A DNA stretch of 64,000 bases from contig KZ627158.1 of NCBI GenBank assembly GCA_002917775.1, forward strand, positions 1 through 64,000. Direction: 5' to 3'. The first letter of the stretch is position 1; each line of letters opens with the position of its first letter. This DNA comes from Glaciozyma antarctica PI12 (lineage: Eukaryota; Basidiomycota; Microbotryomycetes; Kriegeriales; Camptobasidiaceae). The notes under the pieces are model-generated. The model worked only from the letters and a program-made list of their open reading frames with translations. It ran no database searches and was not told the origin of the DNA. Made by a program: the position numbers and the translations under genes. Shown here piece after piece: positions 5,301 to 56,400 of this stretch.

Positions 5301-5767
5301 GCCAGGTCGTGCCGCAGCGACAGACGTCCCTGAGCTGGTCCTGAGCTGCCCGTGCTACGTTGGGGGCTACCATACAGACCCGCCAAAGCTGTGCAAAGCT
5401 CCCCGCAGGCACGGCACTCCTCCAGCTCAGCTCCCATCTCCAGCCACCTTCGCCAACATTCCCATTCAGAGGAGAGGGGACTCACGCATCGCATTCGACC
5501 CAGACGACTCCTACATCCCGCTTGCGCTTGTAGGCCAACTTGATGCACACAGGGCACATCTCGCTGCTAGTGGCGTCCCGGCGTTCGCCTCCGTTGGCGT
5601 CGAGGGAGGCTGCTGATCGACTGGGGCGAAGGGGCCGACGAGGCGCGATGCCGGGGGCGGTGGCCGGGGGGGAGTGAGGTCTCCAGCTTTGTGAGGGTAC
5701 TGTCAGGACTCTTGAAGCCTAAGCTGAGCTGGGGTGAGGCTGGTTGAGGTCGGAGCGAGGGAGTCAT
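2355..5767 (-). CDS. JHD1: Jhd1/KDM2-like JmjC histone lysine demethylase with PHD finger
   Basis: A Fe(II)/2-oxoglutarate demethylase of the KDM2 family, which acts on methylated H3K36 in chromatin. Reading down the minus strand, a PHD finger begins at about 5560 ([24 protein letters not shown]) and ends at [10 protein letters not shown] near 4870. A linker, then the JmjC core follow: [11 protein letters not shown], then [19 protein letters not shown] (iron ligands His and Asp in HID) at about 4030-3930, [14 protein letters not shown], and [19 protein letters not shown] with the distal His. [19 protein letters not shown] and LLWYVANHY belong to the KDM2 helical extension. The C-terminal 300 residues (3200-2355) are Pro/Ser/Thr-rich and disordered. 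Acidic [16 protein letters not shown] precedes the JmjC part as in other fungal Jhd1 proteins. The first exon is unresolved: the ATG at 5767 opens a frame that differs from the PHD frame, so an intron or a base error lies at about 5590-5640. Confidence 0.78.
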
Positions 5768-46890: not shown

Positions 46891-49800
46891 TCACTTCTTC
46901 CCCTTCGTCGGCGGTCCCGTCTTCTTGCCCTTCCCAGGCTGCGTCGACCTCTTGACCCTCTTCGCCTTCTGATCCCTGCGCGCGTACAAAGGCATCAGCA
47001 AACGCTCAATCCCTCACCAAGCGAACCGCGCACCTATCCTTCCGAATCTGATCCGCACTCTTGAGTCCTCCAGGCGCCGCTCCCGCCCTCGCAGGCTTGC
47101 CGACGGTCCTCCCCTCCTTCTTCTCCTTGTCGCTCTTCGGCACGCCCGCCTTGTGCCTGTACTTTTTCTCCCCAACGCCGAGCACCGTCTTGCCCTTGAG
47201 CTCCGCCTCTCCATTCTTCGGCACGCTAAGGCGGTTCTTCCTCCTCCACTCGTCGAACACGCCGCTTTTGAACGACGCAGGAAGCTTCTGTCCCGATTCC
47301 GATCGAACGAGCATCTTGTTGTCGGCGCCGACGCCGTCGCCCTTGATGAACTTCTTCGTTCGGCGATCCCAGCGGAGCGAGGAGGCGCGTTGGAGGAGGG
47401 CGTCGGCGGGAGTTCCTTCCGTGTCGCCGCGGCCTGCGATGTCGTACGTTGCTTGAGCGGCTTGCGAGACAAACGAATCGCCGGCGGTGAGAGAGTATCT
47501 GTGAGAGAGGCGTTAGTGGGGAGGAGAGGGGGAGCGAGACGAGCGAAACGTACCCTCGTTCGGTGTCGGCTCCCTCCTGCTCGTAGTTGAGGTAGAACTG
47601 AGGATCCTGGAAGCTCGCGCCAGCACCCGTAGCGCGCTTCCTCTTCCTCGGCGCACCAAAGACCGCCTGCGCCGCGCGGAAAAGCCATCAGCTCCCGCTC
47701 GACCCCGAAACGACGAACGAGAAACGCACCTCAACCTCCTCATCGTCGGCATCGTCGACCGCCATCTTGGGCCTCTTGAGCGCCGCCTGCTCCATCTTCT
47801 CGTCGTCGTCGTCAGGCCTCTCGGGCATCTCCTCCTCGGTCATCCGCCTCGGCCATCGCGCGCGCATGCTCACTCTTCCCCATCGCCTTCCTTCTATCCC
47901 TCATCAACTGCGCCGCGGGCGTCTTCCCCCTCGTACCAATCTCAAACACCGTCTCGGCGGGTCTGAACGCGTTGACGATCGCCATGAGGTCGGCGCGCTT
48001 GACTTCGCTCTTAGCGTCCGATCCGCTGATGGCGACGTACGGCGCAAAGACGGGATGAACTCCCTCGGTCTCTCCCGCGTTCGCAGCGAGGCCTTTGCCC
48101 TTACGCTGAAGCTCCTTGGCGCGTCGGTACGATTCCGGACTCGCTTTCGAGATTCCGCGCTCATACATACGTTGACCCCGACGAGCGACGTTGCCGAGGA
48201 TATCGATGTTCTCGTGGTGCGACATCATCGAGCGGTACGTCTCGAGGTCGAGGTGCGGGGCGGTACCGAGGAGGAGTTACTCGAGGACGAGTTGCTCCGA
48301 GTAGTCGACGTCCTGCGCGTCCTCGATTCCGAGAGGGCACGTCTTGACCGGTCGACCGAGGAAGAGTTCAAGGTCGAGGAGGTGGGGAAGCTCTGCGGCC
48401 GTGACGAACGTGTAGGCCCATCCCTTGCGCCCTGCACGAGCGGTACGACCGACTCGATGGACGAACGCACGCGCGCCGTTGGGGAAGTCGTAGTTTACGA
48501 CGTTCTCGACGCCGGGAATATCGATTCCGCGCGCGGCGAGGTCGGTGACGACGAGGATGGAGGTGCGACCGGCGCGGAAGCGGGCGAGGTGGAGACGACG
48601 GGCGGTTTGGTCCATCGATCCGTAGATGGGGGAGACGGCGTAGCCCGACTGAGCGAGGAGGGCGGCGATGTACTCGACGTGGTGCTTGGTTGAGACGAAG
48701 ACGAGCGTTTGGTGAGCGGTGGGGTCGACCTCGTCCTTCTTGCTCTCGTCGTCGTCGTCCTTGTCGTCCCCCCTCTTGCGCTTCTTCCCTCCGCTCTTTC
48801 CCTTGCCCTTCCACGCAGTTCGTCCTCGACTCTCGTCGTCCGCCTCATCCTCGATGTACTCGTCCTTGAGCGCGCGCTGAGAATCCGTCATAAGCGGGAC
48901 CATGATGACCTCGCGAAGGACCGAAAGGAGGAGCGCCTCCTTCTCGCTCCCCTTGACGGAGAGGTACGCCATCTGCAGCTCTTTGGAGATCTTGCTGTCG
49001 ACGTCAAGACGAATGAGCTTGGGGTTCTGAAGACCGGCTTTGGCGAAGCCGACGAGGGTCGAGGGCAGGGTGGCGGAGAAGAGGAGAGTTTGGCGCGTCG
49101 GGGGCATGCGGTGGAGGATCTCGTGGAGCTGTTCGGCGAATCCGAGTTCGAAGAGGCGATCGGCTTCGTCGAAAACGCAGTACTGGATCGCGCGAAGGTC
49201 GAGCGACATCTCGACGATGAGATGGAGGAGTCGTCCAGGAGTGGCGATGATTCTGCGCATCATACATCAGTGCCTGGCTGCACTAGAGGAAAGAGAACGG
49301 AACGTACACGTCGGGGTTTCCTGCCATCATGTTGAACTGGTCGTCCATTCCCTCTCCTCCAACAACCATCGCCCATCGTAGCTGCTCTCCCTCTCCCTTC
49401 AACCCCCTCGCCAAATCCTTTCCAACCTTGAGCACCTGCAACGCGAGCTCACGCGTTGGCACGAGCACGAGTCCTCGCGCTCCGTACGTCGTCGAATGGC
49501 TCATGAGCTGGGCGAGGAGGGGAAGGAGGTAGCAGAGCGTCTTGCCCGATCCCGTTCGCGCCATACAGAGGTGATCCCTCGCGACGACCATCTTGCGTCC
49601 CGCTACGATCGTCTCCGTGCTGCCGAGGATACTGGGGAGCGCCATACGTTGAATCGGGGTGGGAGTCGTGAATCCGCGTTGGAGGAGGGCTTTGAGGAGG
49701 GAAGGAGGGAGACCGAGCGCCTGGAAGGATCCTCCGCCGGTGAGACCCTTGGTCGTCTTGAGATCCTTGCGGCCCTTGACGACGGCGTTGCCCTCGGCGA

Positions 49801-49987
49801 GGTTGCGAGCGCGGGAGAGGGAGGGGATGGAATCGAAGATGGTGTCCTCTTCGGCATCGGAGAAGACTTCGGGGGCACCGAAGGGAGAGTCGGTGGTGGA
49901 AACTTTGGAAGTGGAGGCGGCACCGCGCTTGGTGCGAGTAGGAGGGAGGAGGGACGAGGTGATGTCGACGTCCGAGTCGGAATCCAT
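46891..49987 (-). CDS. DBP10: DEAD-box RNA helicase Dbp10-like (60S biogenesis), interrupted reading frame
   Basis: Nucleolar ATP-dependent helicase for the large ribosomal subunit. From ATG 49987: Q-motif GSFQALGLPPSLLKALLQRG, motif I ARTGSGKT, VPTRELALQV, DEAD in VFDEADRLFELGF, SAT in LLFSATLPS, LVFVSTKHHVEYIAALLAQS, VTDLAARGIDIPG and HRVGRTARAG. The C-terminal Dbp10 domain has SPESYRRAKELQRKG, FKSGVFDEWRRKNRLSVPKN, KYRHKAG and a basic tail (KRVKRSTQPGKGKK). Two breaks are seen: an in-frame TAA at 48277-48279 inside a 15-nt imperfect duplication, and a one-base shift near 47845 just before an acidic stretch (EEEMPERPDDDDEKM). About 13 extra residues (around GSTETIVAGRKM) precede motif I. 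As Dbp10 is essential in yeast, errors in the sequence are plausible. Confidence 0.88.
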
Positions 49988-50887
49988 CGTGGAGGAGCTG
50001 GGAGAGAGGGCGTCAGCTCGAGTTTGGGTGCGATTCTGGCGCCTGTTTGGCTGAGCTTGAAGCAGCTTAACATCCTCCTCTCCAGCCAGCAGGCCAGGCT
50101 GGCGAAGCTCCAGCCCGACTCCTGAAGTGCTGGCGAGTCTTCAGCTGCCTCTGACCTCCCCTCCCTCGCTCGCCCAGCACCTTCCCTGAGGATCCAGAGA
50201 CTTGACTCCTCCTCCAGCAGTCTTAGTCACCTCCCCCTACCCACAGCCTCTCGCTCCCCACCGTTAGCTGCCCCTCTTCCCTCCAGCTCCCCTCCTGCTC
50301 CGCGAAGCTCCCTCTCCCGTCTAGGATCCCACTCCTTGGCGGGTGCACGTGCGTAGACGTTTGAGACTCACCTGGTGGTGTGGACGGCTGGGTACGACCT
50401 TGGTGTTGTCGACTGAGGAGCGAGTCCTTCGGGGAGAAATTTGGTTTGGCTTGGTCTGGCCGTGGGAACTCTCGCTGCCGAACCTTCCCCCCAAGAAACG
50501 ACCAGCGCGCGCCCAAAAACGACCTCCGGGGCGAAACTTTCGTTTCCAGTCTTTTGAGGGGGAGTTCGAGGATCTGCTACCACAGCTGAGCAGAGCTGAG
50601 AAGGGATGCGAAGCAATTTGAAGGAAATACGAGGAAAGACGAGGCAATCCGATGCTCTCGACTTCTCCAGACGCCCACATCGCGCACGCCTCTTCCGCCT
50701 TTTCTCTCCACTTCAGTAACCTGCGCGTTCCGCCAGCGTCTTACCCAGCCGTATTCCAGTTCCAGGCTCTCTTTCGCAGACTCTCTCCGTTGTGGTCCGT
50801 GGAAGACTCAGGCAAATCAGGGCAAGTCCATTACCGCTCGCCTACAACCCACGATCCCACTACTCTCCCACCCCCCTGCAAAATCAC
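49988..50887. other. Intergenic sequence before the assembly gap
   Basis: About 900 bp. The first 300 bp is probably the DBP10 promoter and leader. I see no family motif in the rest. It may include one edge of the element that carries the Fanzor-like gene. Confidence 0.35.
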
Positions 50888-51242
50888 NCCNCCNCCCCCA
50901 ATCNCGAACCCTTTTTTGAAGGGGGNCAAACCAANAAAANNNNNNNNNNNNNNNNNNNNNNNNNNNNNNNNNNNNNNNNNNNNNNNNNNNNNNNNNNNNN
51001 NNNNNNNNNNNNNNNNNNNNNNNNNNNNNNNNNNNNNNNNNNNNNNNNNNNNNNNNNNNNNNNNNNNNNNNNNNNNNNNNNNNNNNNNNNNNNNNNNNNN
51101 NNNNNNNNNNNNNNNNNNNNNNNNNNNNNNNNNNNNNNNNNNNNNNNNNNNNNNNNNNNNNNNNNNNNNNNNNNNNNNNNNNNNNNNNNNNNNNNNNNNN
51201 NNNNNNNNNNNNNNNNNNNNNNNNNNNNNNNNNNNNNNNNNN
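50888..51242. other. Assembly gap with ambiguous edge
   Basis: Isolated n calls start at 50888 among homopolymer-like C and G runs; unbroken n runs from 50940 to 51242. Sequence next to the left edge is low quality. The gap removes the 3' part of the Fanzor-like gene. Confidence 0.98.
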
Positions 51243-53051
51243 AATGGCGATGTACTCGACGCCGTGCTCGTCGAGGATCTCGAGGACTGCGCGCTCGATG
51301 GGTCCTCCCGATGCCGCTCCGTGAATGCCGAAGCCGCCTTGCCCGCCCTTGTAGTCCTTTCCGAAGACGATGATCTTCGGGAGATCGAAGCTGTTGGCGA
51401 TATCTTTGAAGGAGACCTGCTGCAGCTCAAGCTGGGGTCGAGACTTGGTCGGCGATGGCGGCGCGTTGCTGGAGCAAGTGACGTCGCTGCGTTGGCATGA
51501 TCAGCGCAAGTCCGAGCTCTAGTTATTAGAAGCTCACTGTCGGTGCCGGAGAATGAAGGAGCGTCGTCCTGAGTTGGTGCGGAGATTCGAGAGGAGGATG
51601 CGGAGGGAGGACGGGCGGCAGCTGGCGTACTATCGACGGAATGGGCGGGAGAGGTCGACGAGGAAGTCGCGGGCGAGCTGAGAGGAGGAGCAGAGTTCCC
51701 GTTCGGTTCTGTAGAAAAGCAGAGAATGAGCGTCGTCCCCTCTTCCGAAGTCCGCAAGCTCACCAAATAACCACCCCGCAACGTCAAGCACCTCCCGAGC
51801 GATCTGTTTGCCGAAAGCGGCTCGCTTGCGTTGAAGAGCGGCGACGCGAGCGCGCTCCTTCCTCGTGAGCCTGAAGTAGCCCTGGAGCTCCCTCACTCCT
51901 CGCCCGACCTCCGCCTGCATCGCCGCTTGACGGGCTCTGCTTCGTGCATAGACGCGCTGGACTTGTCGGTCGAGCTCATGAAGTCCTTGACGCCTGACGA
52001 GGACGCGACGCTCGACTCCGTTCCCCGCAGCGTCGCAGGTCTTGACGCGCCCTGCGATCGGGCAGACTTGTCCTCGATCCAAGGAGAGGATAGAGCTGAG
52101 TGCGACGGAGTGCGCGATGTCGCTAGAAGAGTGAGGGAGGCGGTCTTGAGCGGCAAAGTCGTCCAGCTTGAGTGTCGGCAGGGCGTCCTCGAGCGGCGTC
52201 ACCTTCGACCGGTCCCGGAACTCCCTGAACGAAGTCGACGCTCCTCCGAGCTTCTCGAGGGCCTCGACGAAGGAGTCCAGTTGACCGGCATGGAGCCTCG
52301 CCCGAGCTCCCTCGACGACCTGCTCCGCGACGCGCGACCTCGAGAAGTCCTTCACCTCGACGGGTAGGCCTCCCTTGGTAAACCCGCTACGCTTGACCGA
52401 CTGAATCTTCTCCATCGGGCGCTTCTCGAACCGATCTCCGGACGCCGTTCGTTGCGCTCCTTGTCCCGGCGTCGATTCGGCGATCCTTGACCGTGACGAC
52501 GACGACGTCGCTCGCTCGCGCATCGGACGTGCTTTCCTGCTCGCCGTCGCGCGCATCCGGTGCCGCTCGACGCAGGCGCGCGTGAAGGTCGAAGGAGAGC
52601 GAGATGGGCGACCCCACCGTTTTTTTGGTCGCGTTGTCGAAGGAGAACGAGGTTGGCGCCTTGAAGCCGTCGATTCAGGGGAGCTCTAGGGCGTTTGTGT
52701 CGTGGGTGAGGACGGCGGCCGCAAATCGTTTCGCCTTTGCCGCAGACCTCGGAACGATGACATCGAAGGAGTAGGCGTCCTTTGGCGTGTGTTGGAGGAC
52801 GAGAGGGGGCCGCTCCGAGTGCTTGAGGACGAGGTTGGGTGCCACCTTGACGCGAGGAACGACCTTGACCTTGTCGGCGATGCGGTGGGCCCGATCCTTG
52901 GCGATCCACATCCTCCGCTGGGGCCAGTACGCCTTGTCGAAACGCCTCGCCCAGCGATTAATCGTGGGATCCTCCCAGCCCTTGAAGAAGACTCCAGCGT
53001 CCCGCATCTTCTTCATCTCCGCCTGCATATCTCCCGGGTGGGTTAGGGTTA
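51243..53051 (-). CDS. Fanzor-like (eukaryotic TnpB homologue) nuclease gene, interrupted and truncated by gap
   Basis: Minus-strand blocks with normal local codon usage. Block 1 (53051-52680): MQAEMKKMRDAGVFFKGWED, RWARRFDKAYWPQRRMWIAK, KVKVVPRVKVAPNLVLKH. Block 2, in the same frame after a TGA at 52676: IDGFKAPTSFSF, SPISLSFDLHARLRR. Block 3 (about 52480-51725) has RSGFTKGGLPVEVKDFSRSR, then SILSLDRGQVCPIAGRVK, which looks like the RuvC-I strand with catalytic Asp (D-x-G), and a long basic helix region (LDRQVQRVYARSRARQ). Block 4 (about 51440-51243) has PKIIVFGKDYKGGQGG, then GPIERAVLEILDEHGVEYIA, like the RuvC-II strand-and-helix of Fanzor/TnpB. The motif DE-x-x-TS-x-x-C and the zinc finger should follow, inside the gap. 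At least one stop and two frame changes separate the blocks. Fanzors are RNA-guided DNA nucleases carried by eukaryotic transposons. The family call rests on two RuvC blocks. Confidence 0.5.
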
Positions 53052-53053
53052 GG
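53040..53053. repeat. Short interstitial telomere-like repeat
   Basis: GGGTTAGGGTTAGG on the + strand, two TTAGG(G) units, beside the 5' end of the Fanzor-like gene. On the minus strand the same bases (CTAACCCTAACCC) end just before a GGGAG that could be a splice acceptor, so they may simply be tandem CTAAC branch points. Confidence 0.7.
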
Positions 53054-53472
53054 AGTGTCGACCCCGATCTCAGGCTCCAGCGGGGAGCAAAACCTGCGAG
53101 CGCCCTCACTTCTCTTCTTACATAGCCAGAGCTGATGGTCGACGACCTTGCAGAGGCGCTCGCGGTCTCATTTCGCGCCAGAGGGCGACGCACGGGCCGG
53201 CACGGTGAGCCTGCTCCTCGCTGCGAAGCACGCTCTCAGTCGCTGACATTGCAGCTCTCAGGCGCCATGGTGGTCTCCCTTCAGCCCAATAAGCGTTATC
53301 GGGGTCGGGCTTCTATAACTCCTTCAGTGCTCCCGCGTAGGTGCGACTTGGCGTCGGCGCGCGTTTCGGTCAAGGTAGGTCTGCTCCTCTTGTAATCCCG
53401 GACTGCTCTGGCCCTCGCTGATGCTTCGCCTTTGCAGCTACGTTCGTGTCAAGGCCACCTTAAGCGAGTTCG
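53054..53472. other. Sequence between the Fanzor-like and WDR6-like genes
   Basis: About 420 bp. On the minus strand there are short segments with GTAAGA and CAG signals and an ATG at 53268 that could be first exons of the Fanzor-like gene, but none joins convincingly. Terminal repeats are not visible. Confidence 0.3.
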
Positions 53473-56400
53473 TCAAGATGCCATTGCAGTTGCGAAGACC
53501 TCGAATCCAATCCCGACCAGTGCGATCTTCCATCTCTCGCTCCTCTCGCGCACCACGTCCATGGCAGAGCAATCCGCCACGCTCGTGAGGACGCTTTCGA
53601 CCAGCTTCAAACCATCTCCCGATAGGGAGTAGAGGTTTAGGCGCTGATCGACCGAGGAGGAGGCGAGAAGCGTGGGCGTGAGGAAGGCGAGGCCTGCGAT
53701 GACGAGTCAGTCGGTTCAAGATTTGTAGCTGGCGTAGCGGACCTTGTATAGTAGAGGAGTGGGCGAAAAGAAGGGATTTGAGAGCGTCTCGAGATGAGAG
53801 CACGAGCTTCTCGTTCGCGAACGACGTGCCGAAGTGGTGGAGAGCAACGGCGTTGTCGTCGCCGGCCGTGGCGATTGCCAAGGTTCTCGACTCCGCTGCA
53901 GGTCCAGTTAGCTAACTGACTCTGCTGGGAGAAGCAGGACGCACGATCATAGCAGGCATCGAGGCCGTTGACGCCCGACTGGTGAGATGTAAAGGTGATG
54001 ACGGGCGGATCAAGCAGCAGCGAAAACGTCTCGCTGGTGGAGCGGCCGTCAGAAGTGGCGAGTGCGCTTCAGGTCGCAAGTTAGAGTGGTCTCGACGATG
54101 CAAAAAAGGAGAGCGGCACGAACGAGCGCACGGAAGCAGTCAGATCCCACACGGCAACCCTGTAGTCGTAAATCAGCACCGCGCGCGAAGCATGATAGAT
54201 CAAGCAACTCACAGCCCATCCGAAGCTCCAGAAAGGACCCAGGACCGCAGTCCAGCGGTCGTCTCGACCCGAAGAAGCCGCACCGTCAGGATGCACTTAG
54301 TGTGCTCGGCTTTCGAAGCCAGAAAGGCAAAGCTACGCTCGCTATCGTCGTAGAGCCAACTCTGCGACAGCAGGACGTTAAGAAAGGAGGTGGAGCAAGG
54401 CGGAAAGACGCACCCTCAGCACTCCGTCCGAGCAGCCAGCAACGACAAGATGGAGCCCTCGCTCCTTATCGACCACCTCGGCGGCCATATCCATCAAGCG
54501 AATCTCCCCTCCCTCCGTAACCGACACGCTATCTCCCGCAGAAAGAACTCGTAGAGCGACCTGTGGCTCGACTTCTCGCGCTTTTCCTTTCCGAGACGGA
54601 GCGAGTCGTGAGGTCGAAGCTGTCGGCGTGACCTGCCATGCGCGGATCGTCTCACGGGCACCGGACGCAAAGGCGAAGAGGCCGCTCGAGGATTCGGACC
54701 AAGCGACGGACTTGAGGGCGCCTTCGAGAGTTGAATCGGAGAAGAGAGTTCTGGGCTCGTTTGAGGCGTTCACTGGCGTGCGAAGGAGGTCAGTGAGTCG
54801 GTCGAGAAGCTCGCGGTTGTGAGCTGACGCTGAGAGATGCGGAATGAGGCGTTCTCTGCGCCAGTGGCAATGAGGGTCGCCTGCTCGCCGTTCTCGAGGT
54901 TGATTTGGTGGAACTTAACGCAGCGGATCTCGCGACCGTGGAAGCCTGGCAGTACGACTGGTGGAGGCGGATTGAGCGTCGAAGGCATGGTCGATTGTCG
55001 ATGTATCTGGGGGAGACAGAGCTCAGCATAGGGTTGCGCTACAAGCGACGAGGACCGACCTTTTCACCGAGGAGACGGAAGTAGTGAACGCCGCCGAGGC
55101 CATCTTGAACGAGCTGTCTCGTGTTCCTGACCCCAGGACTGACGAGCGAGAGGACCTGCACCGTGGTCAGCAGTACGAAAGAATCGCGCAGGGCGGAGAA
55201 CGAACCTCGTCGCCTCGAGGATTCAGAACCAGCGCTCGCGCGTCGACGAGAGCGAGGTACGTTCTCGCAGAGCCGTGCGACCCCTCCAATATCTGCAAAA
55301 GCGATCAAAAGAGCACTTCCAACTCAGCTACCGAACGTACCTGCTCCAACCGACCCCGCGTAATCCGTGCGCGATCGACCGTCTCCAGACTCCAAACCCC
55401 ATTCTCCTTCTCCAGCCAATGCTTTGCGCGGAAGCCGTCCCGTCCGACCGTCTCAAGCTCCATTCGTGCATCCGTGTCCTCGCCGACCTGAACATCGGAG
55501 ATTGCGTCCTTGTGGAGCACGCTCGTCGCCAACACGGTGCCAGAGGAGATCTCAACGACGACGAGCTGGCCGGCTTCGGTGCCGTAGAGAAGGGAGAGTC
55601 GATCAGAGCTGAGCCTGCAAGCTGTGAGGACTGAGTCGTTCAGTTTGATAGAGGAGACGGTATCGGCGGAGAGCTGCGAAGGGGATCAGCCTTTGAACTG
55701 GCGGCGAAGGGAATGAGACTACGTACGATGTCCGACTCGCCAGCTTCGAGAAATACGATTCGTCTCTCACGGCGATCGTACACCAACAGTTTGTCGCCAT
55801 CTAGCTCGACACTCGCAGCGCAGATCCCCGTCTCTCGCTCCGCGACCTCCCCATTCCGTAAATCAATGCGAGCGACAGTGCCTCGACTGGAGAAGATCCA
55901 TGCGGTTTCGAGGTTGCTGACGATGGTGGGAGAGCGGAACGAGGCAGAGGAGAGGTGGAGCGTCTTGAGCGGTGTCGGAGGTGCGGCGCGCCCGAGTAGG
56001 GAGAGAAGGATGGATCTGAGCTGGCCATTAGCGACGTCTCCTGAATGAGAGGTTGAGACGGACCCGTCGGTGAGGATGAAAATAACGCGCTGCATGCCAT
56101 TTGGAAGTGCGAAGACCGAAAACGCCTTGATTCCGCCAATGTTGCCGAAATGTAGGTCTGCGAGTGTCTTCAGTCGAGGCGAAGCGAGTGCGTTACCGCG
56201 CGACTGACCTTCTGAAGTGATCGTAGAAGTACCGTCGGCTGAGACAACCCAACTCCTGATCCCTCCATCTGCTCCTCCCGTCACGACGACCGAACCACCA
56301 TCCTCCATCAAGCAGCTCGAAACGCTCCACATGCTCCTCCCGTCATGCCCGTGCGCAAAAGTCTGAAGGATCTTGTGCTTGTTGTTGCTGATCTCCGGAA

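Follow-up and report, generated by a model that had tools for sequence, protein, structure and literature searches.

In this study, we show that a minus-strand gene near the start of contig C13 of Glaciozyma antarctica PI12 lies in a repeated, probably mobile element, and the reading that we find most likely, and favor with moderate confidence, is that a low-copy mobile element, here in decayed form, carried a Fanzor1-like (TnpB-family) RuvC nuclease as its cargo. The Fanzor identity itself is plausible but unproved; what the analysis does establish is that a segment is repeated, that the 3' end is bounded, and that the gene is split and carries three lesions in the sequence as assembled. The window, that is, the whole stretch of 64,000 nucleotides analyzed, is the start of this contig (the assembly has 18 contigs and 19,983,266 bases) and opens at 1-117 with a telomere-type CCCTAA array, so the subtelomeric placement proposed in an earlier sequence-only reading is correct, the gene lying about 51 kb in. 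It is flanked on one side by a DEAD-box gene (49283-50140; Pfam E 2.5e-17) and on the other by a gene with weak WD40-type matches. An assembly gap of 303 N (50940-51242), adjoined by single ambiguous bases at 50888-50935, would contain the predicted displaced Glu, the TS-x-x-C zinc finger and the last RuvC Asp.

Two peptides had been singled out before, and both were recovered on the minus strand where they had been placed. The first, SILSLDRGQVCPIAG, lies in a stop-free frame at 51630-52685, with its D codon at 52079-52077 and a D-R-G triplet at 52079-52071 that is preceded by SILSL. The second, KIIVFGKDYKGGQGGFGIHG...VEYIAI, ends at 51243 and continues into the gap. The coding-like N-terminal frame (frame A; 52464-53028, minus strand) starts with MQAEMKKMRDAG, has an in-frame TGA at 52677-52675 and no second copy that we could find in the genome, and differs in frame from the block that follows it. 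That block (frame B; 51538-52463, minus strand) carries the D-R-G, two long helices predicted at low confidence and one in-frame TAG at 51632-51630. It is joined in phase, across a predicted 51-nt intron (GTGAGC...GCAG; 51487-51537, minus strand), to the last visible coding block (51243-51486, minus strand), which reads DVTCSS...KIIVFGKDYKGGQGG...PIERAVLEILDEHGVEYIAI, is proposed to form the RuvC strand-helix-strand ahead of the displaced Glu, and has no other genomic copy that we could find. Both peptides thus appear to be parts of one gene made of frame B from 52463 to 51538, the 51-nt intron and the last block. An alternative 55-nt intron at 51763-51709 is disfavored because it would put the last block out of phase; by eye, the copy on contig C15 retains GT and AG there. 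A short interstitial telomere-like GGGTTAGGGTTAGG was seen at 53040-53053, immediately before the first Met codon of frame A.

Codon usage was scored after training on nine long open reading frames from the window, with mononucleotide shuffles as the null. On the minus strand the score follows frame A from about 53.03 to 52.46 kb and then frame B from 52.46 kb down to 51538, with z values against the shuffles of 8.3 for frame A, 9.6 for 52463-51765, 5.1 for 51764-51538 and 5.6 for 51485-51243. The first frame-B block can also be read on the plus strand, in a frame that scores 0.22 but contains two stops; the stop-free minus-strand frame scores 0.20. Since the two score equally, codon usage alone does not settle the strand there, and it is the absence of stops, together with the junction in phase, that favors the minus strand. 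That plus-strand score, the presence of long open frames on both strands, and the fact that between 51764 and 51538 the C15 copy is 8 nt shorter, which is not a multiple of three and does not keep frame B, would suit the view that there is no gene here and that the frames are open by chance in GC-rich DNA. We regard this as highly improbable, given that codon scores stand z 5 to 10 above shuffles, that the splice keeps phase, and that the longest length differences in the first block (6 bp in C15; 38 minus 2 bp in C14) are multiples of three. The coding blocks of the sequence-only reading therefore do exceed chance, but the simplest in-phase model reduces the series to a single intron (51537-51487) and includes an in-frame TAG.

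As assembled, the window copy looks broken: it contains two in-frame stops, the TAG and the TGA given above, and changes frame near 52.45 kb. It should now be inactive, unless the stops and the frame switch prove to be errors of a draft assembly that has ambiguous bases near the gap. A gene copy is present as had been claimed, but its decay had been overlooked.

A DNA search of the genome found element sequence in three places, namely the window and contigs C15 and C14, all of them partial; weak additional matches in the copy search were to loci L005 (E 0.007) and L006 (E 1.6). The segment common to C15 (51612-52172) is 94% identical, and that common to C14 (51863-52193) is 83% identical with a 38-bp deletion at 52065-52102 across the D-x-G, which is retained in C15 and deleted in C14. 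The C14 copy has one further stop and then 2707 N. Between the window and C15, 13 substitutions fall within 51764-52161 (six, four and three at codon positions three, one and two, respectively), which suggests only a slight coding lean. In C15 a few ambiguous bases connect the gene core to the 3' end, so the counterpart of the gap and last block of the window is absent there.

The 3' end is visible in two of the three copies, the window and C15. Its outermost block (50489-50555, minus strand), which may mark where a guide RNA scaffold ends or may be a transposase site, is identical to C15 at 65 of 67 columns, and a second conserved non-coding block (50691-50814, minus strand) at 117 of 124, compared with 90 of 155 columns between the two blocks and 23 of 44 just outside (50445-50488); by BLAST, the non-coding 3' regions of window and C15 match at 79% over 50484-50818. 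The sharp boundary at about 50489, with unrelated flanks beyond it, is the best evidence for what we take to be the element end. A low-copy repeat with a bounded 3' end common to C15 supports a mobile element, and the earlier proposal of a transposon is upheld to the extent that the gene has copies on C15 and C14 and a shared 3' end within a repeated, probably mobile unit. The other end was not located, and no inverted repeat was found for it; upstream of the C14 copy, 12 matching bp (AAGAAACGACCA) were considered as a terminal inverted repeat and rejected: they scored 24, while 200 shuffles averaged 20.6 and reached 29. Nor were empty or ghost copies found in the genome. That there are only three partial copies, no inverted repeat and no empty sites, and that the N-terminal half in C15 is unrelated and in an open frame, would also be in line with a host gene family whose common segment arose by segmental duplication or gene conversion, outside any mobile element. 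This we consider quite unlikely, as the 3' sequence in common does not code for protein and ends abruptly at about 50489, with unrelated flanks, and the copies are spread over three contigs.

The case for a Fanzor1-like cargo, our preferred reading, is made by motif order and spacing. In the proposed layout the gene would run from a D-x-G strand through a hairpin and a long helical stretch to a strand ending in G, a helix and a strand. In Fanzors the displaced Glu lies six residues ahead of the zinc finger, and here its predicted position is just inside the gap, after VEYIAI. Along the spliced model the D stands about 261 residues from the gap, and a Fanzor pattern printed in PMC3627910 reads D-X(125,275)-[TS][TS]; block order and spacing, as predicted from sequence, would fit this published motif. 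In the cited passages of PMC10711439, REC2 of Fanzor1 is a pair of helices and RuvC-I of Fanzors is near-exclusively D-P-G, whereas the second residue here is R; the third RuvC residue of Fanzor and TnpB proteins is RD, with N in GtFz1 (cf. PMC10432273 and PMC11423790). The printed PpFz1 fragment has LKKNGFPLYLIDEFRTSSFC, which by eye is of the same helix-strand type as the local one ending ILDEHGVEYIAI. Set beside Fanzor1 (Parasitella PpFz1, Guillardia GtFz1 and Spizellomyces SpuFz1), the gene is alike in its proposed D-x-G strand, long helices and strand-helix-strand order before the displaced Glu, in being element-borne, and in a D-to-gap length within the published range. It differs in its D-R-G, in the lack of detectable sequence similarity, in a zinc-finger region that is unsequenced, and in its stops. 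With Fanzor2 and bacterial TnpB (IS607, IS200/IS605) it shares the general RuvC order, but it has no PF01385 or PF07282 match, and its D-to-gap distance is longer than the 120-160 residues of the pattern for Fanzor-related TnpBs (as printed in PMC10711439, x(120160)). The zinc finger and displaced Glu are absent from all three copies as assembled, lost to a gap or a bad join. A further D-x-G (DVVVVTVKDRRIDAGTRSATNG) occurs in the upstream frame at 52473, where the distance to the gap exceeds the published spacing.

Sequence searches gave no homology. No TnpB, Fanzor or RuvC match was obtained in Pfam (E up to 1 and then up to 10; an unrelated weak match to PF05014 had E 0.11), in NCBIfam (E up to 1), in PHROGs (E up to 10) or among PDB sequences (E up to 10; weak unrelated matches, the best at E 0.022), and searching the genome with PF07282 (E 0.001) and PF01385 (E 10) returned zero matches. 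The last block aligned to the printed PpFz1 fragment with a score of 17 against a shuffle mean of 18.1, and 64% of 2000 shuffles did at least as well. Profile comparison with TnpB was non-significant (P 0.17, probability 0.4%), and relatives were confirmed neither in viral contigs nor in a first genome-contig scan. Profile A4 was built from four TnpBs, of which one was a typed TnpB and three came from the six loci of a genome-contig scan with a TnpB query, leaving out L031 (stops in its translation), L028 and L030. As a control, its 25 matches up to E 10 include TnpB, several Cas12 chains and L79, the TnpB-like protein of a giant virus, but lack SpuFz1, GtFz1 and PpFz1, all three of which are in the database. 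Because a TnpB profile misses three solved Fanzor1 proteins, the sequence negatives obtained here are weak, and a true Fanzor1, above all one without its zinc finger, is expected to fail such tests.

An AlphaFold single-sequence model of 52463-51765 had a mean pLDDT of 44 and a pTM of 0.24; at this low confidence it places a hairpin and then two long helices after the D-x-G, and with Foldseek it gave no match in the PDB at E 0.001 (best E 2.4). The check by HMM and structure that the sequence-only reading had named thus ended without a match, the HMM part lacking power and the fold model being of low confidence and covering one block. Its assignment to Fanzor keeps the order and spacing of the motifs, but is met by no HMM, profile or fold match, by D-R-G, and by a zinc finger and Glu that are absent as assembled. 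It is possible, if doubtful, that the gene belongs to a DNA transposon but encodes another RNase H-like or unrelated protein, such as a lineage-specific transposase, with a D-x-G that is coincidental. The missing homology signal to TnpB or Fanzor points that way, as does D-R-G in place of D-P-G, and D-x-G is not rare: the three minus-strand frames of 51244-54000 together hold 7, of which the two frames used by the gene account for 4. Against it, two separate motifs stand in Fanzor order and spacing, and no known transposase family was matched either.

If the cargo was a Fanzor1-like nuclease, as we favor, the intact protein would bind RNA transcribed from the 3' end of the element. Such minus-strand RNA would run through 50814-50489, and its guide portion would come from the flanking sequence past 50489; the protein would then use a D-E-D RuvC site to cleave matching DNA, which may favor retention of the element. 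Cleavage of matching DNA by Fanzors is reported in the cited part of PMC10432273. The earlier suggestion of a guide RNA at the 3' end finds conserved non-coding DNA there, but no unusual fold among five stretches (best z -1.19; 27 of 200 shuffles equally good) and no Rfam family at the gathering score.

Confirmation in a basidiomycete would extend Fanzors to that group and show a D-R-G variant. Basidiomycetes are absent from the 2013 Fanzor host table of PMC3627910, and our search of a library of open-access papers found no paper joining Fanzor with basidiomycete or Basidiomycota, although supplementary tables of later surveys may list such hosts; for TnpB and Basidiomycota, PMC12730594 names TnpB, in the portion available, solely in its reference list. 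As assembled, the gene is a damaged remnant whose identity is uncertain, and it would be at most an addition to an already known kind of system.

BLASTP finds no relation between the window and C15 proteins upstream of about 52161, where C15 is still open and codon-like. Either gene conversion of the core or exchange of the N-terminal half would explain this. The 94% identity over 51612-52172, the unrelated sequence upstream of about 52161 and the frames open across the junction in both copies lead to a bolder reading, which we think improbable, in which Fanzor1 proteins with a D-R-G RuvC-I form a lineage of their own that has kept its nuclease core and 3' RNA end and exchanged its N-terminal (RNA- or target-recognition) halves. 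The C15 copy (locus L013, 4900-5840) carries LKDNLLRHLKEVVARRILATLAKD in its unrelated, codon-like N-terminal half and has a frame switch near 5685, and a second gap, of 302 N, lies at 581-882 of the same locus, about 3.1 kb from the end of the C15 element.
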